This document shows positions 4,441 through 63,500 of a stretch of DNA of 64,000 nt, one piece after another. The notes beneath the pieces were generated by a model. That model was not told where the DNA came from, ran no database searches, and saw nothing but the letters and a program-made list of their open reading frames with translations. Each line of letters begins with the position of its first letter. Within the stretch, counting starts at the first letter, position 1. Position numbers and translations under genes: made by a program. Location: assembly GCA_028583605.1 (NCBI GenBank), contig CM053337.1, positions 23,164,764 through 23,228,763 of the forward strand. Reading direction: 5' to 3'. This DNA comes from Dastarcus helophoroides (Eukaryota; Arthropoda; Insecta; Coleoptera; Bothrideridae).

Positions 4441-7400
4441 CTTCTATTCTATTCTCCCTGTTTCCTTCCCGTCTCTTCCTTTGACCTTTATTTTCCTTCT
4501 TCTCTTCTCTTCCCTCCGCTTATCTTTTCTTCTCTTCTTGTCTGTTCTCTTCTCTTCCTTTTTCCTCTTTTCTTACTTTTTGTTCTCTTCCTCTTCTCTT
4601 TCTCTTCTCTTTTCTTCCCTTCTAATCTATTTTCTTCCTCTTTGCTTTTTTGGTCTCTTCCTCTTCTCTTTCTCTTCTCGTTTCTTCCCTTCTAATCTAT
4701 TTTCTTCCTCTTTACTCTTTTGGTCTCTTCTCTTCAAATCTCTTATTTTCTATTCCCCTTCTCTTCCTCTTTTTTCTCCCTCTTCTAGTCTCTCCCCTTC
4801 TCCCTTCTTTTCTCTTGCTGTTCCTCATCTGGTATCTTCTCTTTTAGTATTTCCTCTTCTCTTTCTCTTAAATTGCTCTTCTCTTCCCTCTTCTCTTTCC
4901 CTTTTCTTTATCTTCTTCTCCTCTTCTCTTCTAATCTCTTTTCTTTCCCGTCTTTTCCTCTTGTTTTCATATTCTTTTCTTCCTCTTTTCTTTTGTTCCT
5001 CTTCATTTTCTCTTCCTTTTATCTTTCTCTTCTCTTCCTCTTCTATTATTCTTCTCTTCTAGTCTCTTCCCTTCTTTTCTCCTCTCCTGTCTTAAATTTC
5101 TCTTCTCTTCTAGTCTTTTCCCTTCTTTTCTCGTCTCCTCCCTTATATTTCTCCTATCTTCCACTTCTCTTTATCTTCTTCTCTTTTCTCCCTCTTTCCT
5201 TCCTCTCTCTTCTCTTTTAGTCTCTTCCCTTCTTCTCCCTTCTTTTCTTTTACTTCTCTTCTAATATCTTCTCTTCTAGTCTCTTTCCTTCTTTTCCCTT
5301 TCCTTCCTCTTAGCTTGCATTTCTCTTCTTCTTCTTCTTTTCTTCCTCTTCTCCCTTTTTCCTTTTCTCCTCCTCTCTTCATCCTATCCTCTTCCTCTCC
5401 TCTTTCTCTTCTGCTTCTTCTTCTTCTTCTTCTTCTTCTATTCTTTTCCTCCCATATTCCCCTTCTCTTCCTCTGATCTTTTTGTTTTCTTCCAGTCTCA
5501 TCTCTTCTCTTCTTCTCTCTTTTCTTATATTTCTTTTGTCTTCCACTCCTCTTCACCTTCTTCTCTTCTGTTCCTCTTTTCTCCCAGTCTCTTTTCTTTC
5601 TCTTCTCTCCCTCTTCTGTTCTAGTGTCTTTCCTGCTTCTCCCTTCTTTTCTCTTGCTCTTCCTCTTCTCTTCTTTCCTCTTCCTTTTCTCTTCCTTTTC
5701 TCTTCCTCTTCTCTTCCTCTTATCTTCTTATCCTCTTCCTCTTCTCTTTCTCTGCTTCTTCTTCCAGTCTTTTCCCCTTCTCTTCCTCTCCTATTCTCAT
5801 TTTCTTCCTCTGCTCTTTTTCTTTTCTTCTAGTCTCTTCTTTTCTTCTCTCCTTTCTTATAATTTTTTTGTCTTCCACTTCTCTTCATCTTCTTTTCTTC
5901 CCTTTCTCTTCCTTTGCCCTTTCTCTCCTCTTACTCTTTCTTTCAGTTTCTTCCTCTTCTCTCTCTCTCTCTTCTGTCCTAGTCTCCTCCCTTCTTTTCT
6001 CTTACTTTTCCTCTTTTCTTTGGTATCTTCTCTTCTAGTTTCTTCCCTTCTTTTCTCTTCTCTTCTTCTTATATTGCTCTTCTCCTCCTCTTCTCATTAT
6101 TTTCTTCTCTTTTCTTCTTTCTCTTCTCTTCTTTCTCCTCTCTTCCACTTCTCTTTTCTTTCTCTTCCTTTTATTTTCCTATTATTTTATATTCTTTTCC
6201 TCTTCTCTTCCTCTTCTCTTCCAGTCTCTTTCCATTTTTTCTCCTCTCCTCTCAAATTTTTCTTTTTTTCCACCTCTCGTCATCTTCTCTTCTCTTCCTC
6301 TTTTCTTCCGCTTTATTTTCCCTTCCTCTTTCCTTCCGGTCTCTTCTCTTTTAGTGTCTTCCCTTCTTCTCCCTTTTTTTCTCTTGCTCTTCCTCTTCTC
6401 TTCTGGTATCTTCTGTTCTAATCTCTTTCCTTCTTTTATCTTCCCTTCCTCTTATCTTGCTCTTCTCTCTATCTTTTTCTCTTGTTTTCTTCTCTTTCTA
6501 TTCGTCTTCTTCTCTTCTTTTTCTCTTCTCTTCCTCTCGTATTTCCCTTCTCTTCCTCTGCTCTTCCCCTTCTCTTCCTCTGCTCTTCTTTTCTTCTAGG
6601 CTCATCTCTTCTTTTCTTCCTTCCTTTCTTATATTTCTTTTGTTATTCACTACTCTTCATCTTCTTCCCCTCTCTGCCTCTTTTCTTTCAGCCTCTTTTC
6701 TTTTAGCCTCTTCTCTTCCTATGTTCTGACTCTTCTTTTCCTTTTCTCTCCCTCTTCTGTTCTAGTCTGTTCTCTTTTTCTCCCTTCTTTTCTCTTGCTC
6801 TTCCTCTTCTCTTCTGGTATCTTCTGTTATAGTCTCTTCTCCTTTTTCTTTTCTCTTTCTCTTATCTTGCTCTTCCCCCTGTTTTTACCTTCTTCTCTTT
6901 TCTTCTTTTCTTTTTCTTCTCTTCCTTTTCTTTTATTCTTATCTTCCTATCATCTACCTCTTCTCTTTTTCTTCTTCTCTTCTTTTTCTCTTTGCTTCCT
7001 CTCCTATTCTCCATCTCTTCCTCTGCTCTTCTTCTTTTGTTCCGGTTTCATCTTTTCTTTTCTTCTCTCCTTTCTTATATTTCTCTTGTTTTTCACATTT
7101 CTTCATCTTTTCTTCCTCTTTTCTTTCAGTCTCTTCTCTTTTAGTCTCTTCTCTTCGTATTCTCTTTCTCTTCACTTCCTTTTCTCTCCGTCTTCTGTTC
7201 TAGTCTCTTCCCTTTTTCTCCCTTCTTTTCTCTTGCTCTTCCTCTTCTCTTCTGGTATCTTCTGTTATAGTCTCTTCCCTTTTTTCTTTTCTCTTCCTCT
7301 TATTTTGCTCTTCCTCCTGCCTTTATCTTCTCTTTTCTTCTTTTGTTTTTCTTCTCTTCCTTTTCTCTTATTCTTATCTTCCTATCATCTGCTTGTCCTC

Positions 7401-22711: not shown

Positions 22712-22857
22712 GGTCCTTGGCTATCTTCAAAAATTGAAATACAGAACTTGTCCCCTCAAAGAGATACTCTGAAGATGACAGCTTGGCTGTCGAAACGCGT
22801 TAGAACAACTTTTCTTGGTTTCAGGGGACAAGTTCTGTATTTCTATTTTTAAGATGT
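22712..22857 (+). ncRNA. hammerhead-like palindromic element (degenerate ribozyme)
   Basis: The outer arms pair almost perfectly (GAAATACAGAACTTGTCCCC with its reverse complement, about 21 bp). Near the centre is CTGAAGA (22769-22775), one extra U, a perfect 6-bp stem GACAGC/GCTGTC with loop TTG (22777-22791), then GAAAC (22792-22796) and the palindromic ACGCGT. CUGANGA, stem II, GAAA and a short palindromic stem III are the ordered parts of a type I hammerhead ribozyme. The extra U before stem II and the poorly paired inner stem I suggest low or no activity. Related, more decayed copies occur at 29884, 38565 and 58420, so this is a dispersed family. Confidence 0.5.
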
Positions 22858-28093: not shown

Positions 28094-28638
28094 ATGAACT
28101 GGGCAAAACTACCGTACCAATGGATGCTGATACTAGGATATTTAGTCGCTGGTCAAGATATCAACTTAAATCAACAATACGATGCAAATAAACCCTTCGG
28201 TCAAGATCCCAACAGCCCGCACTCTTCGAGCACAGCAGCACCATTCGTTAATTTCGAACAAAACGATGAGTTAGCCAGAAATGATCAGTTCGGTCGAAAT
28301 GATCAATTCGGGAGAAATGATCAGCTGGGGAGAAATGATCAGTTAGGGAGAAACGACCAGTTAGGGAGAAATGACCAGTTTGGCCAAAATATACCAATTG
28401 GGCGGGATAGGGATCAATTTGGGGGCAATAGGGACCAGTTTGGTGGGAACAGAGACCAATTTGGCGGAAACAGAGACCAGTTTGGTAACAGGGACCAGTT
28501 CGGTGTAAACAGAGATCAATATGGGAAGCCCGATGAGTATGGTGGTAGGTTCCCGTATGGGTCGACGCCTGCGCCCAACTGGAACGATTTTGGGAGAAAC
28601 TCGCTCGACTTCGGTCACAGCACAATTATAAGGGAGGC
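28094..28638 (+). CDS. Mcr: Mcr coding exon 1: signal peptide and repeat-rich N-terminus
   Basis: The chosen ATG (28094) is the first after the acceptor at 28080 and opens a signal peptide (hydrophobic core WMLILGYLVAG, probable cleavage before QDIN). The mature start is Asn/Gln/Asp-rich and carries the RNDQFG repeats. The exon ends IIREA with donor GTAAGT at 28639, phase 2. An in-frame ATG at 27974 lies before the acceptor and would bury the signal peptide, so it is rejected. Confidence 0.9.
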
Positions 28639-31600
28639 GTAAGTATTTGCTCTTCATTCTAGTTTAGTTCTTTTGACGAAAACTTTTTTTCGAAATTTTT
28701 TGCCGTTGGACTATGCATTGGATTAATCTAGGAAAAATATAATGAAAAATCCAAAAATTCGTATTTTTATAAATAACGCTGAAAATAAAAATCGTCAGGG
28801 GTCAATTTGTTGCAGGACTTCGAACCGCTATGTTTTTTCTTCCGGTTTTCGGTTTTCGTTCCGGCAAAAAAATTACATCGATTCAGTTTTGGTTTTCGTT
28901 CCGACAAAAAAAACGGTTTTTTCCGGTTTTCGGTTCAGTTCCAGGTGACTCATTTTTTGATTTTTAAAAGTCTTTAAAAATTGATTTTTGGACATAATTT
29001 AGAAAATGTGATGTCTTTTTTATTTTAATATTACAACCTTGCCTAAAATTGAAGGAAAATATTTTATATTTTTCAAGTTAAAATTTTTCATGGTGAAACT
29101 CTGAGTTTTTAGTTCAATTTGAGCTCAAATTTCAAAAAAAACCTAAAGTTTATAAAAAACTAAATTGGAATTTCGGGTTTAGATATTTGAAATTTAAACT
29201 CTGAATTTTTATAAAAATCCTAAATTATATACCCTCGAGTTGAAAACTTCTAGAATATACGAACTTTGGCGATTAAAATCGAAAATTTGAGAGACCTTTT
29301 TCTTTTATAATTTTGGTTCTCTATCGAAGTTTTGACTTTGATTCGCTTTTTCTAATAAAATTGATTTTTACTGTTTCGACTGTGTTTTCTATAACTGTCG
29401 ATTAAAAAGATCAAATTAAAAAAATAAACGAAAATAAAAAAGACCAGCCACAATTTCAAAAAAAGAACTTCAAATTTATTTAAAAAAAAAGAGTTCAAAA
29501 TTTCTACCCTAATTCAGTCTTGACTTTAAACCCAAATATTCGATTTTGTTCCTGGAAATGTTGCTGAAAACTTCAAAATTTCTAAAAAAAGTAAAATTTT
29601 TCGAAAGTTTTGTTTAATGTATTTAGCTTTTTTCAATATTTTAACTTTTTTCTTTTGAAGTTTTGAATTTAAACTTGTAGGTACTTTTCATTATTAATTT
29701 TTCTAAAATTTCAACTTTAAACAAAATTTAGTCTTTCTCTCTCTTTCTCTAGCAATTTCTTAACCCTTTTTGTCGACATGTTGACTTTTATTCTTTAATT
29801 ATAGACATTTTTCTCAAAATTATGAGTTGAGACTTGAACTATAAGAAATTGACAAATATAAATTTAAATTTGGAATAGTTTTTTCATCTTTCTCGGTTTC
29901 GGGGACAACATCTGTATTTCAGTTTTTGAAGATAACCAAGGACCAGTCCGTTCCACCAAAAAAAATAATAAAAAAATAGATATTTTTAACGAAGGTCGAT
30001 AATTTAAAAACGATTTTCAAAAAAGCACAGCTTTTGAAGGGAATTGAAATTGTCATGAAAATCGAAATTTTTAAGAGATTTTAAAAAAACTCCGAGATAT
30101 TAAAAAAGGTCCAACAAAGGTTCAGATGTTCAAATAGAAAATTTTTTAAACCTATATTTTCAAAAGAAAAAAATGTCAACAAATCGAAATATAAAGAGAG
30201 AGTCGTAGTTTGAAAAAATATAGAACTTTTCAAATATTCTACTTTTCAAAAGACGCCGTTTTTAAAAAAAAATTCAAAAAAATCGAAGCTTCGAAGTTGA
30301 AGTCAAATATTTTATAATTAATTCGTAATGTTTCAATAAAGTCGAGATTTTTAGCGAAAGTCGAAGCTTTCAAAAAATCAGAATTTTGAATAGATGGAAT
30401 TTTCAAAGCTGAAAATTGTCATAGAAATGGAGTTTTTTTTTTAAAAAAAACACTGATTTTTCCAAAGAATTTAAAATTTCCGAAAAAGAACCGTTTTTTA
30501 TTGAAATTATCAAAAGGTCCTCATTTTTAGAAAATCGAGAAACTTTAAAAAAGTCAGAAATTTAAAAAAAAAAGCTATGATTTTCAACAAAGATCCAAAT
30601 TTTCAAATAAAGAATATTTTAAAACTAGTTTTTGAAAAGACAAAATGTTCACGAAGTTAAAATATCAAGAAAGAGTGAAATTTTGAAAAAATATAGAAAT
30701 TTTCAAATATTCATTCATATTTTAAAACTCGTTTTGAAAAAAAGTCCATATTTTTAAAAAACTCGAAAATTTCAAAGTCAAAAATTTTAAAATGAATTCG
30801 TAATTTTTTAATAAAGTCGAGATTCTTTGCGAAAGTCGTTTAGACTTTCGCAAAGAAAGTATTTCAAAAAATCAGAATTTCAAGAAAATCACCATTTTGA
30901 ATGCATGAAATTTTGAAAGATGTTGAAATTGTAAAAATCGAAATTTTTCAAAAAAGTGCCAAATTTTCTAAAAATTTCCAAATTTTCAAGAAGTCGAAGT
31001 TTTCAAAAACTTCGAAATTAAGAAAAAGTGAAACTTGAAAATAGATAGTTTGAAAAAGGTCGAATTCCTCAAAAACAGTCAAAATCTTGAAAAAAGTCAA
31101 ATTTTTAAAAAAGGGGAAATTTTGAACGAGAGTTGATATTTTCAAAAGTCGAAAGTTAAAAAACCAAATTTTTACAAAAGTTCAATTTTTTAATTTCTAA
31201 AATAGGTTTAGATTTGCAAAAAAAATCAAACATATTGTTACGGGCTTATCGGTTCGATTGATTACACTTATCAAATAAGACCCACTTTATTACTGAACTC
31301 AACAATTTACAATTAACTCACTTCTACTAACTCACTAATTGCACTGATTCTAACTGACTGACTCGAGGGAAAACTGAGCGCCTTTTTATAGTTTCGGCCC
31401 GCGTCTTCCAGAATTTTCGGCAGATAAGGCTTTCGAATGCCGAAATTTCTGGAAGGCTTATCTGCCGTTTGTTTCGTTATCGCGGCCGCTTTCCCCTTAT
31501 CAGATCCTTCTAGAAACTTTTTTTATTTACTAAATTCTACAATTCTATTCTAAATCCTATTTCATCTATTTACATTGCGTTACAATATTAAAAAAATTCC

Positions 31601-34600
31601 AAATTTAAAAGTCAAAGCTAAACATTTTTAATGAGAACCGAAATTTTTAAAAAGGTTTCAATTTTTAGATTTTAAAAAGGTCCAGAGCCAACATTTCGAA
31701 ATTTAAAACTTAAATGATTAAAATCGTTAATGAAAGTCGACATTATGAAAAGGTCGTGATGTTTAGAAAATGGAGAAATTTTGAAAAAAGTCGGGGATTT
31801 TAAAACATTTTTAGATTTTCAATAAAGAATTTTTTAAAGCTACATTTTCAAAAAACTAAACGTTCAAAGGATCGAAATATCAAAAAAAGAGTCAAATTTC
31901 CAAAAAATATACATATACATTTCTAAAGTCGCCGTTTTGAAAAAAAAAACAATATTTTCAAAAAATCGAAATTTTGAAATATCTTAAATTTTTAAAATAA
32001 ATTCATAATTTTTCAACGAAGTCGAGATTTTTAACGAACGTCAAAATTCTCAAAAAAAAACACAACTTCAATATTGAATTTTGGAATAAAATGGAAATTT
32101 GGGAACGAATGAAACGAACCGAAAATCCCAAAAAAGACGTATTTCGAGCAGAAAGACAAAAGTTCAAAAAAACAATAGAAATTTTTAACAGAAAGTTAAA
32201 TTTTCAAAAAAAATAGTCAAATTTTGAGAATAGTTGTCTACGAAGAAGACGAATTTGGAACGAAAAACTAAATTTTGAGAATGACAAATTTCGAAAAAAA
32301 GTTGAGATTTGAAGCATCACAAAAGTAGAAATTTCGAAAAGACAATTTTGAGAAAACTTGAAATATCCAAGATAAGACGAATTTAAAGAACAAAATTTAG
32401 TTCCCAAAACAAATAAAAATTTCGAATAAAAGGTCGAGATTTCAAAATATCTCAGTCTTCAATTGTCTTTCAATTTTGTGCCAATTTTGAGGAAAAATTG
32501 GGATTTTCTGGTCGAATATTTATTTTATTTGACTGCTTAAGTCGGAGGGAGACAAGTGCCTTACCATGGCGTCAAAAAATATCCAATAATGAGATAAATG
32601 TCAACTTTTTAAGAAACAAGTTGAACTTCTTCGGAAAATTGAATTGAAAAAAATCTCGAAATCTTTGAAATTTACAAAAAAAGTTTTCTAGAATTTTTGT
32701 CTTTTTAGAAAAATTCAGAGTTTTTAAAAAGTTTTCTCAAAGTTTCTATTTATAGGAGAAAAAATTGAATACTTCTAGAAAAAGTTTCAAGTTTCAAATC
32801 AAAATTATATAAAAAATTTGAAAATTGGAATTGAAATTTATCGAAATCCATAATAAAAGGGCAAAATTTACAAAAAACAAATATTATCTATATTAAATAT
32901 TAGAGAAGAAAAGAGAGAACGTCTTCCTAATTGACTGAAAAAATTTTAAATTTTGTTTTCCAAAAAGTAAACAATTTTCGAAGAAAAACTGAATTTTTCA
33001 AAAAAGTGCCAAATTTTCTAAAAAAAATCCAAATTTTCAAAAACTGGAAGTTTTCAAACAATTCGAAATTAAGAAAAAGTCGAATTTTGAAAATAGGTAG
33101 TTTGAAAAAGTCGAATTCTTGAAAAAAACGAAATCTTTAAAAAAGCTAAAATCTTGAAAAAAGGTCAAATTTTAAAAGAGGGGAATTTTCAGGACTCAAA
33201 ATTTTGGGATTAATTTTGAAAAATCGTTTGTCAAAAATGTTGTCTTTTTTTCTCGAAAATTGAATACTCTTTCGAGATTCTGAATATAAATATTTAAAAT
33301 AAAAATTAGCATAAAATTTTTAAATTCAAGTTAGCACTTTTGCGTTTGAAATCTATCTTCTGCTAACATTTTGAGCAAAAATTTGAAATTTTTAATGGAA
33401 ACGTGAATTTTAAGAATAAAAATAAAAGATTCCACAAAAAGTTTAATTTGAATTATTTCTAAAGTTCAATTTTCTATAAAAAAATTGAAATTTTAAGATC
33501 AACAACGAGTTTTCAATTTTAGAGACGAAATTTTGTGAAATTTGTGAAAAAATTTAACATTTTTAGAATAGATTTTTGACACAAAAGTTGAAGTAGCAAA
33601 GAGTCGAATTTGCAAAGGACCAAATTTTCGAATTTATACCAGAGGTTTAGCGAAAGCAATTACATAATATTTAAGAGAACACACAATTTTGACTTTCAAA
33701 TTCTAAACAAATCACAGTTTTGAGGCTTGAGGAAAAAATCAAAGCTTATAGAATAAAAATTACTATTTTAACGTAAGCAAAATTGTTGCAACTTTAAGTT
33801 ATACATTTTCTAACATGTCACAATTGGAATATCATGTTGGAATCTTTTGCAAGAAGAATGCAACCTAGACTACAAATTCATGCAGCCCTCCAGGCGTGTA
33901 TAGTGAATCATAGGTAGCTGAACTACCAACAGTTGAAACACTGCGCCACCTAGCGAAGCGGTTGCTCTCTAGGAGAGTTCCCAGAAGACAAGGATTCTAT
34001 AATGCACAGACCAATAGGTTTGAACATTTATTAGATTCGAAGTTTGGAAACCAAATACCGGTTTCGATCTTGTTAGATCTCGTCAGTTTGGTATATCCAA
34101 CTCGAATGCTAATAAATGTTCCGACAAGTAAGTACTAAAACAATCACAGGCGTCGATTATAGAATCCTTGTCTTCTGGGAACTCTCCTAGAGAGCAACCG
34201 CTTCGCTAGGTGGCGCAGTGTTTCAACTGTTGGTAGTTCAGCTACCTATGATTCACTATACACGCCTGGAGGGCTGCATGAATTTGTAGTCTAGGTTGCA
34301 TTCTTCTTGCATACGACATTGTTGGCGATGGCCATAGTTTCTCTATGGACCAATAGGTGGTAGTACTAAAGAGTCACTCGCTCGACGCCTGTGATTGTTT
34401 TAGTACTTACTTGTCGGAACATTTATTAGCATTCGAGTTGGATATACCAAACTGACGAGATCTAACAAGATCGAAACCGGTATTTGGTTTCCAAACTTCG
34501 AATCTAATAAATGTTCAAACCTATTGGTCTGTGCATTATAGAATCCTTGTCTTCTGGGAACTCTCCTAGAGAGCAACCGCTTCGCTAGGTGGCGCAGTGT

Positions 34601-37600
34601 TTCAACTGTTGGTAGTTCAGCTACCTATGATTCACTATACACGCCTGGAGGGCTGCATGAATTTGTAGTCTAGGTTGTATTCTTCTTGCATACGACATTG
34701 TTGGCGATGGCCATAGTTTCTCTATGGACCAATAGGTGGTAGTACTAAAGAGTCACTCGCTCGACGCCTGTGATTGTTTTAGTACTTACTTGTCGGAACA
34801 TTTATTAGCATTCGAGTTGGATATACCAAACTGACGAGATCTAACAAGATCGAAACCGGTATTTGGTTTCCAAACTTCGAATCTAATAAATGTTCAAACC
34901 TATTGGTCTGTGCATTATAGAATCCTTGGAATCTTTGTTAAAATTTTGACTTGAAATTTAAAAATTTTTAGGTTAAATTTGAAACTGCGATATTTTAGCG
35001 AAAATTTTGAGAAAAAATCATATTTTGGAATTTTTGGAAGATTTAGAAAGTCGGCAGCAGGAATTTGAATTTGGGATTTCGAAAAAAAATTGAAATACTA
35101 AAATCAAAGTGGAATTTGAAGGAAAAAATTTACGAAAAATCGAAAATGTGATTAATAACTTAAAAAATAGAGGTATCAAATTAAGAAAAGAAAATTGAAA
35201 GTCAAAGAAAGAATTTTTTATAAAAAGATTCCAGAAAAATGTCTAGAAAAACTCGAATTTGGAAAAAAAAATGTAGGGAAAACCGAGTTTCTCTAGCTTC
35301 AATGAAAAATATGCTACATCTTTATTCCAAAGATACAACAGAGGAATTTTTTTTTTATTTTAAACTCGAAATTTTAGAAGAAGAAAAGAAATATTTCGAG
35401 TAATTTCCAGATAAAAGTCCAAATTTCAAGAAAAAGTCGAAAATCGAAAAGCTTCAAGTTAAAACTTAAAATTTTTATTTGGGTTGAAAATGTGAAAATT
35501 GTGTTTCCAATCTAATCTAATCAGAAATGAGAGATGAAGATGAGATGAAAGTTGCAAGGAATTGTGTACAGTTTCGAAATAAAAATTGAAATTTCAAAAA
35601 AAATTCCAATCTTAAGTATAACAAAAAATTGTTAAATATACGGGGTGTTTCATAAATGCATGCTGAACCGGCAGGGGGATATTCCTTGGGCAATTTTAAG
35701 ACAAAATTTTCATATTAACATAGGTCCGGAAACGCTTCATTTTCGATATACAGGGCGGTAAAAATTGAAGAAAAATCGGTTTTTCTTCAATATTTCTGAG
35801 ACTGGTTTAGATATTTTTTTGATATTCAGTACACGATATCTGGGTATAAAAGCAAGTATTTTGACAAAAAAACATTTGTTCTGATTCCACCAGTGGCGTT
35901 CCCACAAAGAGGTCGATACACATTTTTGAAAAAAAAAATGTGACGCCAATGCTATTTTTCAAAATAAGAATTATTTTCCTAGTCTTTGTTGTGTTTCTAT
36001 CAAAAATGAGCTCTTGACTTTTTGTCCTATGACGGACGGTTTCCGAATTAAAAAATAAAAATCATTTACTTGCTATGCCGCTGTGGTAGATTAATTTATT
36101 AATGAAAATCTAGTAGGCCACTGAGATTTAGTTTTGTGTTTACAACCAAGTGTCAAATTTTTCACTTCAATACTTTATCTGAATGTGAGTGATTGATAAG
36201 TATAAGAAAATATGTTTGAGAATGCTGAGTTTGCCGATATTCATTACATGTACGGTCTTGCGGATGGAAATGCATTTGAAGCCAGGCGACTGTATGCAGA
36301 GCGTTTTCCGCAAAGAATTGTGCGAGATGCAAGAACTTTTTCAAGCGTTCATAGAAGACTACGCGAGAAGGGATGTTTTAAACCCGATCATCACTTAAAA
36401 GGGGCACAAAGAACCGCAAGAACAGAAGAAACTGAAATAGCTGTTCTTAATTCAGTTGAGCAAAATCCCGAAATAAGCACAAGGAAAATTGCTAGTAATT
36501 TAAATATCTCCCATATTTTAGTCTGGAGGATACTTCACGATTTTTTGTTATACCCTTACCATATTCAACGGGTTCAAGCCTTACTGCCTCGGGATTTACC
36601 ATTTCGTATAAATTTCTGCCAATGGTTTGTTCAAAAAATTGTTGAAAATCCACTATTTGACAGAGAAGTATTATTTACTGATGAAGCCAGTTTTTCCCGA
36701 AATGCAATTAGAAACTTCCACAACAATCACTTTTGGAAGAGAACCCGCATGCCATGGTCGAAGTCAATCACCAAGAACAATTCTCGGTAAATGTGTGGGC
36801 AGGAATTGTTGACGACCATTTAATTGGACCCCTTTTTTCTGCCAAGAAGATTAAATGGAGAAAATTATCGTCACTTTCTTGAAAATGATTTACCAGCGCT
36901 GTTAGAAGATGTCCCCGTTTTAATCCGAAATCGAATGTGGTTTATGCACGATGGTGCCCCTGCGCATTTTAGTGTTTTGGCACGTGCATATTTGAACCAA
37001 AATTACAATAATCGCTGGATAGGCAGAGCAGGAACAGAATTATGGCTGCCTAGATCCCCTGACCTGAACAGTCTAGATTATTTTTTATGGGGCTATCTTA
37101 AAACCTTAGTTTATAGCACCCCAATCCAAACTGAAGAAGAACTGAGAAATCGCATAACAGATTCCTGCAACACTATAAGAAATACGCCAGGAATTTTTCA
37201 ACGAGTACGCGAATCTATGAGAAAAAGAGTTGAGGCGTGCATACTTGCAGGTGGTGGACATTTTCAACACCTGATATGATTTAATTAATTTCATTGTTAA
37301 GATTTCATTAATAAATTAATTTACCACAGCGGCATAGCAAGTAAATGATTTTTATTTTTTAATTCGGAAACCGTCCGTCATAGGACAAAAAGTCAAGAGC
37401 TCATTTTTGATAGAAACACAACAAAGACTAGGAAAATAATTCTTATTTTGAAAAATAGCATTGGCGTCACATTTTTTTTTTTCAAAAATGTGTATCGATC
37501 TGTTTGTGGGAACGCCACTGGTGGAATCAGAACAAATGTTTTTTTTGTCAAAATACTTGCTTTTATACCCAGATATCGTGTACTGAATATCAAAAAAATA

Positions 37601-40600
37601 TCTAAACCAGTCTCAGAAATATTGAAGAAAAACCGATTTTTTCTTCAATTTTTACCGCCCTGTATATCGAAAATGAAGCGTTTCCGGACCTATGTTAGTT
37701 AATATGAAAATTTTGTCTTAAAATTGCCCAAGGAATATCCCCCTGCCGGTTCAGCATGCAATTATGAACCACCTTGTATAAATTCGACGAACCGAAATAA
37801 ACCGATATATTTTTTTCGGTTTCGTTCCGGTTTTTGGTCCGGCGAAGATAACGGTTTTTTTCGATTTTCGGTTTCGGTTCAGTTCCGGTTCAAAGCCCTC
37901 GTTTGTTGGCCTTTCACAGTTGAGATAAAAAAATCTAGTTTCTTACATAATGTTTTGTATTGTTCAACTTCCAAAGCTAAGAATAACCCTCTGAACAGTA
38001 AATATAGTCTGTTATTAAGTGAGGTTTCATTTTGGAAAAGCATGCTAAATATCTCCCAGAAGCAGAAGATAAATTTCCATTAGTAAACAAGTCGATATTT
38101 TAGGTACTCCATTCGATAATCGGTTAAGTGGTAGACAAAATAATCGCCTCAAATGTATACATTGTAGTTTGTTAGTTTATTAGTTAGTTCATTAAGTTCC
38201 CCTGCCACAGTAACATTCAATCTCTATTTCAAGCTACCTCTTTGAATGTATAATTTCGCTTCTAAACAAACTTATAGATAAATTTAATATTCTAGGCCGT
38301 ACTCGATCATGTCTTAAATTTATGCACAAATACGCTCGAGTGCATTTCCTATCAGCCAGACACTTTGATATGTCACTTATTGCATTTTTGATGCGGTTCA
38401 CCCCATGAATTTTAATTTGTAACGTAACGCATTTCGCCTGTTTTGCGAATTACCAACAGGGGAGCAGTAGTTTATAACTTTCACTTGAAATTAAACGAAA
38501 TTTTTAGAGAAAAGTATTTCTTAAAAATACGTATTTTTTTATTTAAAAAAATCAAAAATTTTGGCTGGTTATCTTTAAAAATTGAAATACAAATGTTGTC
38601 CCCTGAAACCAAAAAAAGTTAAGTTGCGTTAGAGCAACCTTTGATGAGTTTTTTAATCTTTCTTGGTTTCAGGGGATAAGATATGTATTTCAATTTTTTT
38701 TAAAATCGAAGCTTTGAAAAATTGCTCAAAATGGGAAAACGTACCTTTGGATTTTAATTCAGAAATTTCCAAATTTTTTCTGGAATTTCTAATTCTTGGT
38801 TTATTTTTTTATTGATGTCCGAGAGGCTCAAGAGGAGGACTTAAGTCCCTAAAGCCCTCTACCCTTTTGAGTGCGCCAGTGATTACCAATATTACGCGAT
38901 TTGTTACACTTGTATTCAAATCTGTTGCAGGACATACTTCATCGTTGCCTCGAAGTTGGTACGACCGGGCCACTTATACAGGGTGTCCGTGACTGTCATT
39001 AAGGAGAAACAACCGATAGTTGTGAGGGCTTCCATACAGAGGAACGGTGTGGAAATGTCTTCCGATCACAAAGATGTGAAAGAGAACATCCAAGAAACAC
39101 TATTGATGCGAGTAAGTTATTCAGTCTGTGTAGTTTTTTTTTTAAGTTTAATCCACTCGCAAAGGGTAACCCCAGTTATGCTTTCAAAGCACTGCGAGTA
39201 GGATGCGGAAACAAGGTTAGATGGCGCCTTCTTATGGATAGGTTGTAATTTTTGGAGAAAATTCCTTTTAGTAACAAGTTCCATAACTTGGAAGTTCTAA
39301 AATTCCTTCTGGTAGCGAGTTCCATAGCTTGGAAGTTCTATAGAAAAAAGAGTCTCCGTAGACAGAAGTCCTCACTGTGTCAAGTTGGACCGCACAGGAA
39401 TTTGCTGTCTCCGACTGTATACTACGCCTCAAGAATCTTGCCCTTGGGGGATCAATCCTATTAGTTTCTGCGAGCATCTTCCATGATAGTACTTGTAGAA
39501 AAGAGACAAGTCACCAACCATACGCCTGTGCTCTAGTGTTTCGAGAGAATCGCTCAAACTCTCGTCATCAATTAGTAGAATCGCTCTTTGAATTGAATCC
39601 AAAAGATCTAAAGTGTGTTTTGGGGCTGAACTCCAAACATGAGAACAGTATAGGCTAGTGTTGGCCTAACTTGAGCTTTGCATAGTGTTAATAGCTGATG
39701 AGATGTGAAGTACTTTTTAGCTCTAAAAAGAAAGCCTAGCTTCTGAGAGGCGGATTTGTCAATCGAAATGTTACTATTTTACGAAGTGATATTTTTAAAG
39801 TAAATTCAATTTTTTCCTGTTTTGTCGTGGACAAGATTTTAAAAATTCAAAGTTTTCAAAAATTTCAAAACTGCGATAAACATTTTTCTAGAAGTCATAA
39901 TTTTTAACAAAAGTATAATTTTTCAAAAACAAGTCAATATTTTGAAGAAACGACGTTCCGAAACGGAGTTAAAGTTATAAAAATGTAGAAATGTTCAAAG
40001 ACTCATATAGTTCAATTTTTCAAAATCAACAGAATTTTCCAGACAAAAAAACAAGTTTAAAGAAAAAGTCAAAACTAAAAAAAAGAAATTTTCTAAAAGG
40101 AACAAAATTTCCAACAAAAAAAATAATCGAAATTTTGAAATAGTCGTAAGCTTGTAAAAAAATCACTATTTTCAAAAAAATTCGACGCCGACATTTTCAA
40201 AAAAATTGAACTTTTCAAAAACACTTGGTCAAAAAATGAAATTTGAGAGTAGATATTTTTAATCAAGTTAAAATGTTTAAATAATTAACATTTTTTTAAA
40301 TTTAAATTTTCGAAGAATGCATTTTTTCAAGAAAATCGAAATTTACAAAAAAGTCAAAAGAAAAGGGAAACATTCAGAAAGAAAAAATTTAAATTTTCAG
40401 TAAAAGTCAATCTATTTTCAGACCAAAACGAAATCTTCTAAAAATCAAAATTTCGAGAATTTTAAAAAGGTGTAAATTTTGATAAAAACATTTCCAAATG
40501 CTGAAGTTTTTAAAAGTCTAAATGTTCGAAAAGATCAATATTTCTCAAGAAATGTTCAGTTTTCAAAACATTTCTCATTGTCAAAAAAGTCGAATTCTTA

Positions 40601-60562: not shown

Positions 60563-63500
60563 TTTAATTTTTTATTTAAAAGAAAGAATATATATTTCAA
60601 CTAATCTCGAAAAAAATTCTGAATTTCAAAAAAATAAACCCTGAAATTTAGGAAATAATTCAAGTTGAAATTTTGAGTATAAAGTCAATTTTTTTTAGAA
60701 AATGCAGAAATTGTAAGTTTGTAATCTAACTGTTAGAATAAATAGAATAAAAAAATATTATCATGATTTAAGTGATGGCAAAAAAAGGATGAATCACAGC
60801 AAACATCTCTTAATATAAAATCTGTGTGATCATTATGTATTACAAAATATTTAGTTTAAACTGTTTAGAAAACTTATTAAGTTTAAATTATGTTTAGAAA
60901 ATAATAAATAAAACAGAGTTAGTATTGCTAGGAAATTGAATTTGAAGTAAAATTTTCAGAAAGAAACTAGCAATTGCAGAATTTTGCAAAAAATTCAAGA
61001 TTAAAAAAAGTATTAATTTGCAAAATTTCGACTTATTCTAGAGATTGTAAGATTAGAGAAAATACTCGAACAATCCATTTAAAAGTCAAAATATTGTGAC
61101 TAAAATGAAAAAAAAAATTACATTAATTTCCAGGTTTTTTTTTCAAATTTTAGCTACTTTCTTAAAAGTATAAGTTAAACCTTAATATTGTAAGTTAAAT
61201 TTTGACATCTTTTTAATTTCGTGTTTTAATTCGACATTCTGAGGAAAACATTTAAATTTAAGAAAAGAAATTTCAATTCAATCAAAGATCAAAGTTCGAA
61301 AAAACAAACTAAATTCATAAATAAAAATATCTCAAGATTTCAAATTTCAACATTCGAATTTGAGATTTAGGTGCTAACATAAAAAAGTCATAATCTTTGG
61401 AAAACGACTACATTTAGTGTTTCAAATCGAAATTTTAGAAAAAAAAACACAAAAATTGCAATTTTTATATCAAATTTTAAGACAAATGTAATAATTTAAA
61501 AAAAGATCGGATATATTAAAAAAAACTGTATCCAAATTCTGAATTTCTTTTAAACATTTCGAAGTTTTCAGGAAATTTGAAGAAGACATTTTCAGGTTCT
61601 TTTCGAAATTTTCTTATATTCTGAAGATCAAAAATTCAAATTGGAAATTCTAATTTTTTAAGATAAAAGTAGTCTAAATTTGAAAAGAAAAATATCAACA
61701 TTTTTTTGAAGTAGTCTATATTTTGATTGAAAAAGGTTTATTTAGAAACTTTGATTTTTTAAGCAAATGTTGAGAAATCCAAATTTCATCGAAAATCCGA
61801 GTTGGTACTGTGATGAGCAGCCGTCGTGATTAAATCCAGGTCAAGTGGATTAAATGTGATGCGCGACCAAAACCAGTGATTGTATATAGTTTTTCAAAAT
61901 TGTCGAATTTTGCTCATCTTTAAAAATTTTCGAAGAATAATTTACTTCGATTTTCGGACCCAATTTGTCTACGTTGTGTTTAAAATTATTTTATTCCAAT
62001 AAATTGTAACCCCAACTCGTAGAGTCGACAGGGAAGTGTTATCAAATTCAAACAACAGTTGACCTCAACGTTTTATTACAATAGGTCAACAAATAAATCA
62101 ACAAAATTTCAAGTTTGTGATTTTCAAGTGTTCTTAAATATAATACAACAAAATAAAGTGAACCTGTTTGTTTCAACTTGTTTAAATTTGCTGGACACAG
62201 ATCCGAGAGAAATATTTCTTTAGAGAATTAAGAGAATTCATTAAGCACAAGTAATCTGACATTCTTTGTCTAACTCTTTCGCTCGTATATGGTGCGTCGG
62301 TTATTAATTTCCAAAAGTTTATTTTAACCCTAATAATCGCAATGTTTTCCCCAGCTGGGCCATTTAGTTTGTACTCGAAGGTTTTCAAACCAAATGCAGC
62401 TAACTTTGTACCTGATTATCGGAGGGCGTTCGCTGGTTAGTTTGTACACAGAGGTTCTCAAACTATTTTCAGGTGTCTGTTTTATTCCCCAATTCTTTTG
62501 TGTTTTTGTCGCTTCTTAATTCAAGCATACTTCACATAGCATGCAGTTTCCTGTTAAAGCTTTGAGCTAACAATATCCAAAGGATAATGCTACGAGAAAA
62601 TGGAGCCCAAGCTTGGAAATGAAGTTGTGATTTGTCGTAATAAATCAAATTTATAAATGTTAATTCAATCTTACAGATCTCTCGTTCTCTCACTCTTTCT
62701 TTCTTTCTTTCCTTTGTTAACTTGTTCCATAGTTTGTTTTTTCTGTTTTTCTCATACCAAACTCAATCACTCGAACTCAAACCAGTGTCATAAAAGAGAC
62801 TAGAAATATTGTTCAAATTTCATAGAAACTTTCTGAGCCGAATTTCCCTTTCAACACTACATCTAGTTCTACGACTGCTGTTCTAAAGAAAGGGCGCTTT
62901 TGGCTTAGAAAGTGGCTAAGCTTGACTTAGCACAAAACATTGAAATTAAAGTTAGAAACTGGCAAGAAGTTCTCATTTCTTTCGTCAAAACATTTCCCTA
63001 ACGAGAGTTGATACTGCTCGTTCACCGACGTTAGTACTCCCCATTTGTCAACAGATCTATAAGGCTCTCTTTGGGCCAGGTTGTCTTATCCTATATTTTT
63101 GGGATTCAAGCAACCTAAGAAGGAGAATCTGCGAATGAGGTAGCACTAGGTGAATACACCAAAACAAGAACTAGGTAAGAGCTCATTGTGGCTTATGCTT
63201 CTAGGATGTTAAGGTGTACAACGTTTCTAGAACTTGCAGAACATCATCAGTAAAATCCAAATATATGTGTCTGCTGCCAGTTGCCGGACCTTTGTGGTGA
63301 TGGGTATAAATTATTTTGGAACCCCTGGAAACTCAGCTTCCAACAGCAGAACACTAACATCGACCTTAAGGAAATGAAAATGTTTGTATGAAGCGAATGC
63401 GCTTTATTTCCTTTTCGTTTTCTTGTCTTTGTATTTTTTGTTTCCCTTTTTGAAACTGAGACTGATAGTTGCACCAGTCAGCGGTAGGGTTCTTGGCCCT

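Follow-up and report, generated by a model that had tools for sequence, protein, structure and literature searches.

A hammerhead retrozyme in a beetle Mcr-like intron, probably inserted by two-ended target-primed copying of a single RNA circle

How does an element built of hammerhead ribozyme repeats come to lie in a host gene with one of its arms turned head-to-head against the other? The question is raised by an insertion in the first intron of an Mcr-like gene of the beetle Dastarcus helophoroides, located within a 64,000-nt stretch of contig CM053337.1 (assembly GCA_028583605.1, forward strand, positions 23,164,764 to 23,228,763), the whole of which is referred to here as the window. In the reading that we propose, to which we assign a probability of about 0.7, the element is a metazoan retrozyme whose insertion came about by target-primed copying of one RNA circle from both cut ends, probably through the enzyme of a Penelope element.

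The element is composed of a 379-bp unit with a GC content of 42.7%, numbered from its predicted cut so that unit position 1 corresponds to window position 34483. Outer ends of insertions were classed as A (unit positions 55-70) or B (unit positions 205-220), and in these terms the parts of the window copy are the following.

33837-33847, strandless: left target-site duplication, TTGGAATCTTT, identical over 11 bp to 34926-34936
33848-34155, minus strand: inverted arm, or B arm, of 308 nt, reaching from unit position 208 at the outer end (site B) to 280 at the inner end
34033-34104, minus strand: hammerhead of the inverted arm, matching Rfam HH9 at 34.4 bits, with a cut at 34056/34055 predicted from the motif
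34155-34156: junction of the arms, with a 1-nt overlap
34156-34928, plus strand: direct arm, or A arm, of 773 nt or 2.04 units, running from unit position 53 to 67 (site A)
34434-34505, plus strand: hammerhead of direct unit 1, matching HH9 at 34.4 bits and the structural descriptor, predicted cut 34482/34483
34483-34861, plus strand: predicted monomer or RNA circle of 379 nt between the sense cut sites (unit positions 1-379), based on spacing and fold
34813-34884, plus strand: hammerhead of direct unit 2, matching HH9 at 34.4 bits and the structural descriptor, predicted cut 34861/34862
34926-34936, strandless: right target-site duplication, TTGGAATCTTT, exact over 11 bp
28639-38930, plus strand: intron 1 of the Mcr-like gene, which carries the insertion, with GT/AG ends and an in-frame exon join

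The tandem part (34156-34928) has a period of 379 and comprises two direct units (34156-34534 and 34535-34913) with a single difference, C at 34299 versus T at 34678, followed by 15 further unit bases (34914-34928), the final three of which (TTG) are common to the right duplication. The inverted part (33848-34156) matches the first direct unit at 100% over 309 nt in blastn, and the direct units are oriented as the Mcr-like gene. No long frame that could code for reverse transcriptase or GIY-YIG is present among the stop-to-stop frames within the arms, the longest being at most 74 aa; these frames were not compared with families. The target of the window copy resembles the unit end at 9 of 10 bases, a likeness equalled by 115 of 3000 random sites. 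The first-pass annotation of this locus had described two direct 379-bp units, a partial inverted one and exact 11-bp flanking duplications, all of which is borne out, and its view of a retrozyme-like element that inserted recently as one unit and has dispersed relatives holds at the level of the sequence.

Dispersal of the family was examined in the host assembly (538.9 Mb, 50 contigs), where the unit gave at least 168 matches (40 of 1000 candidate places scored) and its exact 36-base core occurs 2302 times, 1134 and 1168 per strand, against 0 for the control; a single-copy unit lacking dispersed relatives, which the first-pass annotation had named as refuting its view, is thus not what the genome shows. 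The ends of the insertions were compared in three sets of places. The first consists of 36 places, 35 among the unit matches listed plus the window, with the segmental duplicate at L202 counted once; at 26 of these both outer ends lie at the sites, and all 26 pair A with B (B left and A right in 15, A left and B right in 11), with no A/A and no B/B. An exact duplication flanks 25 of the 26 (12 bp in 16, 13 in 4, 11 in 3 and 14 in 2), with A ends at 59-67 and B ends at 208-217, and the 26th (L205, ends 62 and 212) runs into Ns. The second set, 12 places chosen on the sole criterion of a minus and a plus exact core within 1 kb, contains nine A/B insertions with duplications of 8-13 bp, including L256 with one mismatch and L260 with a B end at 205; the third, 8 places taken in list order of exact cores, contains two (L249 and L252). 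Taken together, the 56 places include 39 whose two ends both fall on or close to the sites, 37 of them A/B, one B/B and one A/A-like, and 17 that do not qualify, being one-armed, cut off or irregular; under independence of the ends and equal frequency of A and B, 37 of 39 has a probability of 1.4e-9. Neighbouring cores less than 1 kb apart, among the first 100 exact ones listed, are minus-plus in 12 cases, plus-plus in 3, minus-minus in 2 and plus-minus in none, opposite-strand neighbours in that sample being always head-to-head. The inverted-plus-direct arrangement of the window copy recurs across the retrozyme family in this genome. L202 holds two identical insertions, 3.4 kb from each other, that have one and the same duplication and four arms apiece, which is a segmental duplication of one complex insertion; in L253 variant units form a satellite-like tandem array whose pieces overlap, with repeated matches to positions 28-131.

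The arms between these fixed ends are of very different lengths. In the 25 duplicated insertions A arms measure 106-1190 nt and B arms 61-1865 nt, the longest arm reaching 4.92 units (L204), and A arms of at least 2.0 units are found in 10 of the 25. A linear one-unit transcript could not be the source of arms of 2-5 units; transcription of a uniform array could also yield them. Variants carried by both arms of the same insertion were sought at 42 two-arm loci, with the L202 duplicate, L242-L248, L250, L251 and L253 left out; the comparison of divergence left out the L202 duplicate, L242, L243, L245-L248, L250, L251, L253 and L255. The loci left out are Penelope loci or old or complex copies, and the L202 duplicate is an identical second copy. 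Non-majority bases fixed in one arm number 65 in plus arms and 60 in minus arms, and 30 are common to both arms; when partners were shuffled 2000 times, the average was 3.9 and the highest count 14. The variant at position 248 of L204 is present in 7 of 7 passes there and in 0 of 102 elsewhere, that at position 74 of L189 in 5 of 5 and 0 of 125, and that at position 49 of L208 in 3 of 3 and 0 of 165; many loci, the window included, have no private base or share none. Divergence amounts to 0.51% within an arm, 0.59% between arms and 1.28% between elements. Since private bases are common to both arms far above chance, one RNA circle probably served both, and a single circle as template is well supported though short of proof.

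The inner junctions and the targets add further detail. At 28 two-segment places, the L202 duplicate being left out here as well, 28 distinct pairs of inner junction positions occur, with overlaps mostly of 0-7 nt and a filler of 1-8 nt in four; two of the 28 have overlaps of 32-34 nt, which may reflect complementary sequence in a stem of the unit. At A and B alike, the end of the arm and the duplication have on average about 2.5 nt in common, as would be expected if short pairing between target and RNA fixes the exact start. Beyond the duplication the flanks favour GTCAA outward, at least four of its five bases being matched in 6 of 25 per side versus 2.5-2.7% at other offsets; the motif was picked from the same sites on which it was scored and is therefore a lead. 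The resulting target, TTGAC-N12-GTCAA, is a weak palindrome and suggests a symmetrical endonuclease.

The ribozyme on which the formation of a circle would depend reads CCAAA-CUGACGA-GAUCU-AACA-AGAUC-GAAA-CCGG-UA-UUUGG; its stems I and II are complete, and stem III is the self-complementary ACCGGU without a loop of its own. For all three hammerheads of the window the HH9 score is 34.4 bits, with an E-value of 1.5e-6 over 1401 bases, where the gathering score is 52, and a Rfam scan of the entire window at gathering scores returned no match, the shortfall being probably due to the missing loop of stem III. Alignment to HH9 shows the type I layout, and the three type I hammerheads of the first-pass annotation stand, except that stem III is loopless and reduced to the palindrome ACCGGT; a covariance score below threshold, which it had named as a sign against its own reading, is formally what was obtained, with an E-value nonetheless of 1.5e-6. 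A structural descriptor composed after the element had been seen (core, stem I of 5 bp, stem II of 4 bp, stem III palindromic or paired) finds exactly these three hammerheads in the window and none in 100 dinucleotide shuffles, and of 157 hammerheads extracted from genome loci 152 contain ACCGGT and 153 both core blocks. An old retrozyme copy at L244 (about 4563-4935, about 90% identity) has ATCGAT, likewise palindromic, in place of ACCGGT.

The predicted fold of the circular 379-nt RNA has an energy of -133.2 kcal/mol (z -8.6 versus 100 shuffles), the opposite strand reaching only -108.7, an asymmetry that may hint at selection on the sense RNA. The circular fold is 69.7% paired, slightly below the level of above 70% given for retrozymes in PMC4918200. 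Sites A and B are not unusually close in it, 12% of positions 147 apart being equally near. The free fold of a single ribozyme monomer differs from the active fold; the active dimer fold is predicted at -36.5 versus -15.4 for each of two constrained monomers, and an inactive dimer fold lies lower, at -40.4. These values make dimeric action of the ribozyme possible and are suggestive only. Hammerheads of Penelope elements are described as 'lacking the helix III' (PMC6155905), and for those of newt and axolotl dimers perform better (PMC6155905, PMC7229834).

How the pieces may fit together can be set out as two-ended rolling-circle target-primed reverse transcription, in which a dimeric Penelope-type enzyme would hold one circle, lead each nicked strand to its own fixed start and make both complementary DNAs from that circle, a scheme that we regard as moderately probable. 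We infer the self-cutting, the circle, the enzyme and the order of the steps as follows. A transcript with at least two direct units would cut itself at the hammerheads, perhaps as a dimer across the palindromic stem III, and the 379-nt monomer would close into a circle. An enzyme acting in trans, most likely that of Penelope, would cut both target strands about 12 bp apart, and each cut 3' end would prime reverse transcription on the same circle, one strand at site A and the other at site B. Copying would proceed round the circle over a variable length in each arm, after which the two complementary DNAs would be joined. The anatomy of the insertions shows this junction to be head-to-head and to vary in position, in most cases with an overlap of 0-7 nt or some filler bases between the arms. 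Gap filling would leave the target-site duplication. In the Mcr intron the outcome would be an A arm of 2.04 direct units and a B arm of 0.82 inverted unit.

The choice of a Penelope enzyme draws both on the literature and on this genome. Penelope enzymes were proposed as a strong candidate for moving animal retrozymes via RNA circles (PMC7229834), and purified Penelope protein starts reverse transcription within the RNA, the optional tail lying between its two start sites (PMC11167929). The in vitro system of that study, PAc of Anolis, resembles the scheme above in its internal start, its two start sites and the extension of both target strands, and differs in that its template is a linear RNA. 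In the beetle genome at least 91 GIY-YIG matches exceed the cut-off (150 of 1070 candidates scored); L242 encodes reverse transcriptase and GIY-YIG in one 416-aa frame, and the frames of L244 and L245 match GIY-YIG only. The Penelope family examined has 3' ends of two kinds, a short one (..CTTCTTTGGAC) and a long one that carries about 37 nt more as a tail, and such an end is present at 14 of 34 loci, four of which are two-armed. In two of these the arms lie head-to-head, one ending long and the other short, namely L244 with a 12-bp duplication and L213 with a 9-bp duplication, CTTAAAAAT, recognised by eye. On these few cases the family resembles the A/B logic of the retrozyme. In a 3'-anchored score the long Penelope end finds its best match among windows of the 379-nt unit at site A. 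On C9 two long Penelope ends lie head-to-head; these were also considered as one insertion and set aside as two, there being no common duplication (best shared word 7 nt).

Several observations weigh against copying from both ends of one circle. In the first set 10 of 36 places depart from the pattern: seven are one-armed (L183, L188, L191, L192, L198, L200 and L210), and some of these may have a duplication of 8-10 bp, so that one-ended insertion seems to occur as well; two (L179 and L201) are truncated, either by Ns or where the stretch ends, and one (L187) has an end at 175 with an 11-bp duplication. In the second set L262 has both ends at B and no duplication, and L255 and L261 have one end elsewhere. 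Only two of the eight places in the third set are clean A/B: in the old copy L246 the two ends both lie close to 55-56, L247 has a single arm and a 10-bp duplication, and L248, L250, L251 and L253 either have one arm or are complex. Gene conversion from arm to arm could contribute to the variants that the arms have in common. Covariation over 30 aligned units, with 0 two-sided changes, neither favours nor disfavours the fold. As to the enzyme, the start site of the Penelope protein in vitro did not differ between strands (PMC11167929), and at L236 and L215 the long and short Penelope ends fit the pattern with no duplication seen. A local score places 15 unit windows above site A for the long Penelope end, and the short end is not prominent at site B (8 and 14 windows better). 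Finally, no match beyond chance to the retrozyme unit was found in the Penelope loci examined, except in L244, where a distinct retrozyme copy lies close to the Penelope element.

Insertion might also have begun at one end only. A nick would prime at site A, and the inverted arm would come from a jump of the reverse transcriptase to another strand or template or, in the manner of twin priming by long interspersed nuclear elements (LINEs) on one linear multimeric transcript, from a second, upstream priming on the same RNA. LINEs show inversions of the twin-priming kind. The short overlaps and fillers at the inner junctions and the one-armed copies at 7 of 36 places would suit such a course of events; a random jump, in contrast, would not fix the outer end of the second arm at B as in the A/B insertions, and the A arms of two or more units and the private variants common to both arms likewise speak against it. 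We consider this explanation unlikely.

An improbable explanation, in our estimate, takes the 379-bp unit for the pseudo-long terminal repeat (pseudo-LTR) of a Penelope element and the copies for Penelope elements minus their coding part, with no circle involved. The hammerhead with a loopless stem III, the inverted-plus-direct layout and the similar lengths of the duplications are indeed Penelope features (PMC3846280, PMC7761336). At the 28 two-segment places, however, each arm is a continuous match to the repeated unit with at most 8 nt between the arms, in the window copy no frame inside an arm exceeds 74 aa, and the unit is unmatched beyond chance in the loci of the one Penelope family examined, the copy in L244 aside. 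An origin at the level of DNA, through unequal crossing over, the formation of a palindrome, a DNA transposase that works on the A/B ends or an assembly error, could point to the neighbouring identical copies of L202 and the array of L253 and is very improbable, since 28 different inner-junction pairs at 28 places and 25 A/B insertions each with its own exact duplication argue against the copying of finished DNA elements and against faulty assembly.

The family can be compared with several known systems. Of the features expected of metazoan retrozymes, those found are a type I hammerhead, tandem units within about 150-450 bp, absence of coding capacity, a GC content under 50%, duplications exceeding the 4 bp of plant retrozymes and many dispersed copies. 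The likeness to the metazoan non-LTR retrozymes of PMC7229834 extends to the 379-nt tandem unit, the GC content, the lack of a long frame and the very stable fold; in contrast to them the copies here are head-to-head with one fixed end site per side, and private variants common to both arms point to one circle for the two. Plant LTR retrozymes, with type III hammerheads and 4-bp duplications, differ from the type I layout and the 11-14 bp duplications seen here. With Penelope elements the element shares inverted and direct terminal repeats within a duplication and a minimal hammerhead without helix III, and sites A and B may be regarded as analogous to their two alternative 3' ends. In Adineta vaga an inverted pseudo-LTR beside two direct ones, with a 9-bp duplication and an optional tail, is described as typical of Penelope (PMC3846280). 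Pen2a of that rotifer likewise has an inverted partial repeat next to direct repeats and an optional tail at one end, with duplications of 8-10 bp; unlike the element here, which has no such gene, it codes for reverse transcriptase and GIY-YIG, and its end sites are about 30-40 nt apart (PMC3846280) versus about 147 nt on the 379-nt unit. The suggestion that the inverted-plus-direct arrangement may be undescribed is half right, the arrangement being known from Penelope elements and the word 'inverted' being absent from the main text of PMC7229834, on metazoan retrozymes. In the literature passages covered we found no description of a head-to-head retrozyme with two fixed ends, and an earlier description is possible.

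Hammerheads with a weak stem III and a palindromic loop, for which dimeric cutting was shown or proposed, are known from newt and axolotl repeats and from Aedes (PMC7229834, PMC6155905, PMC3088659), those of newt and axolotl being tandem satellite repeats, in contrast to the short dispersed insertions here; the satellite hammerheads of cave crickets are a further insect case. Beyond the host, the specific hammerhead pattern occurs in 0 stretches of viral contigs and a loose one in 51, and at least 117 stretches of prokaryote genomes carry such patterns, 80 of them as loci among the matches listed. A structure filter applied to 131 viral and prokaryote loci in search of relatives left a single hammerhead, with a 5-bp stem III, at position 6002 on the minus strand of viral contig IMGVR_UViG_3300013947_000058 (L041), which is not a relative.

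Other hammerhead-like sequences were noted in the genome and the window. At position 232 of the reverse complement of L234, near a GIY-YIG copy, lies a hammerhead of another kind, whose stem III is a 10-base palindrome (ACATCGATGT), perhaps from a different retrozyme family. Window positions 22740-22840 hold a long palindrome (TACAGAACTTGTCCCC and its complement) enclosing a minimal hammerhead-like core, CTGAAGA..CGAAACGCGT; a similar core adjoins a Penelope copy in L245, and the palindrome is possibly a Penelope relic. A loose core, CTGATGA..GAAACGTTGT, is present at 63218-63250 on the minus strand, where the loose pattern is expected 4.7 times per window by chance. The window also contains a DNA transposon at 35637-37780 with inverted arms of about 500 bp (69-185 nt pieces at 94-98%) and two inner frames, 36206-36787 with helix-turn-helix (HTH) matches and 36824-37276 without any; it is probably broken.

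The placement of the insertion inside an Mcr intron, already made in the first-pass annotation, is confirmed by the GT/AG splice ends and the in-frame join of exon 1 (28094-28638) and exon 2 (38931-39111). Downstream frames exceed the Pfam cut-offs for the A2M bait region and TED and fall slightly under them for MG2 (32.2 versus 32.8 bits) and the low-density lipoprotein (LDL) receptor class A domain (23.6 versus 24.1), and the bait-region exon, searched against proteins, matched best one named Dendroctonus (a beetle; 75% over 89%). Exon 1 encodes an imperfect repeat of the NDQFG/NRDQFG type at 28261-28515.

The insertions of this family seem to record a spread by way of RNA circles, in internal start points that are fixed on either side, repeated rounds of copying and private variants common to the arms. 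If the proposed reading is true, paired A/B ends would serve as a genomic fingerprint by which circle-templated insertions may be recognised in any genome, and retrozymes would be tied to Penelope elements by their manner of insertion. The question of how Penelope elements insert would thereby become testable on a template of 379 nt.

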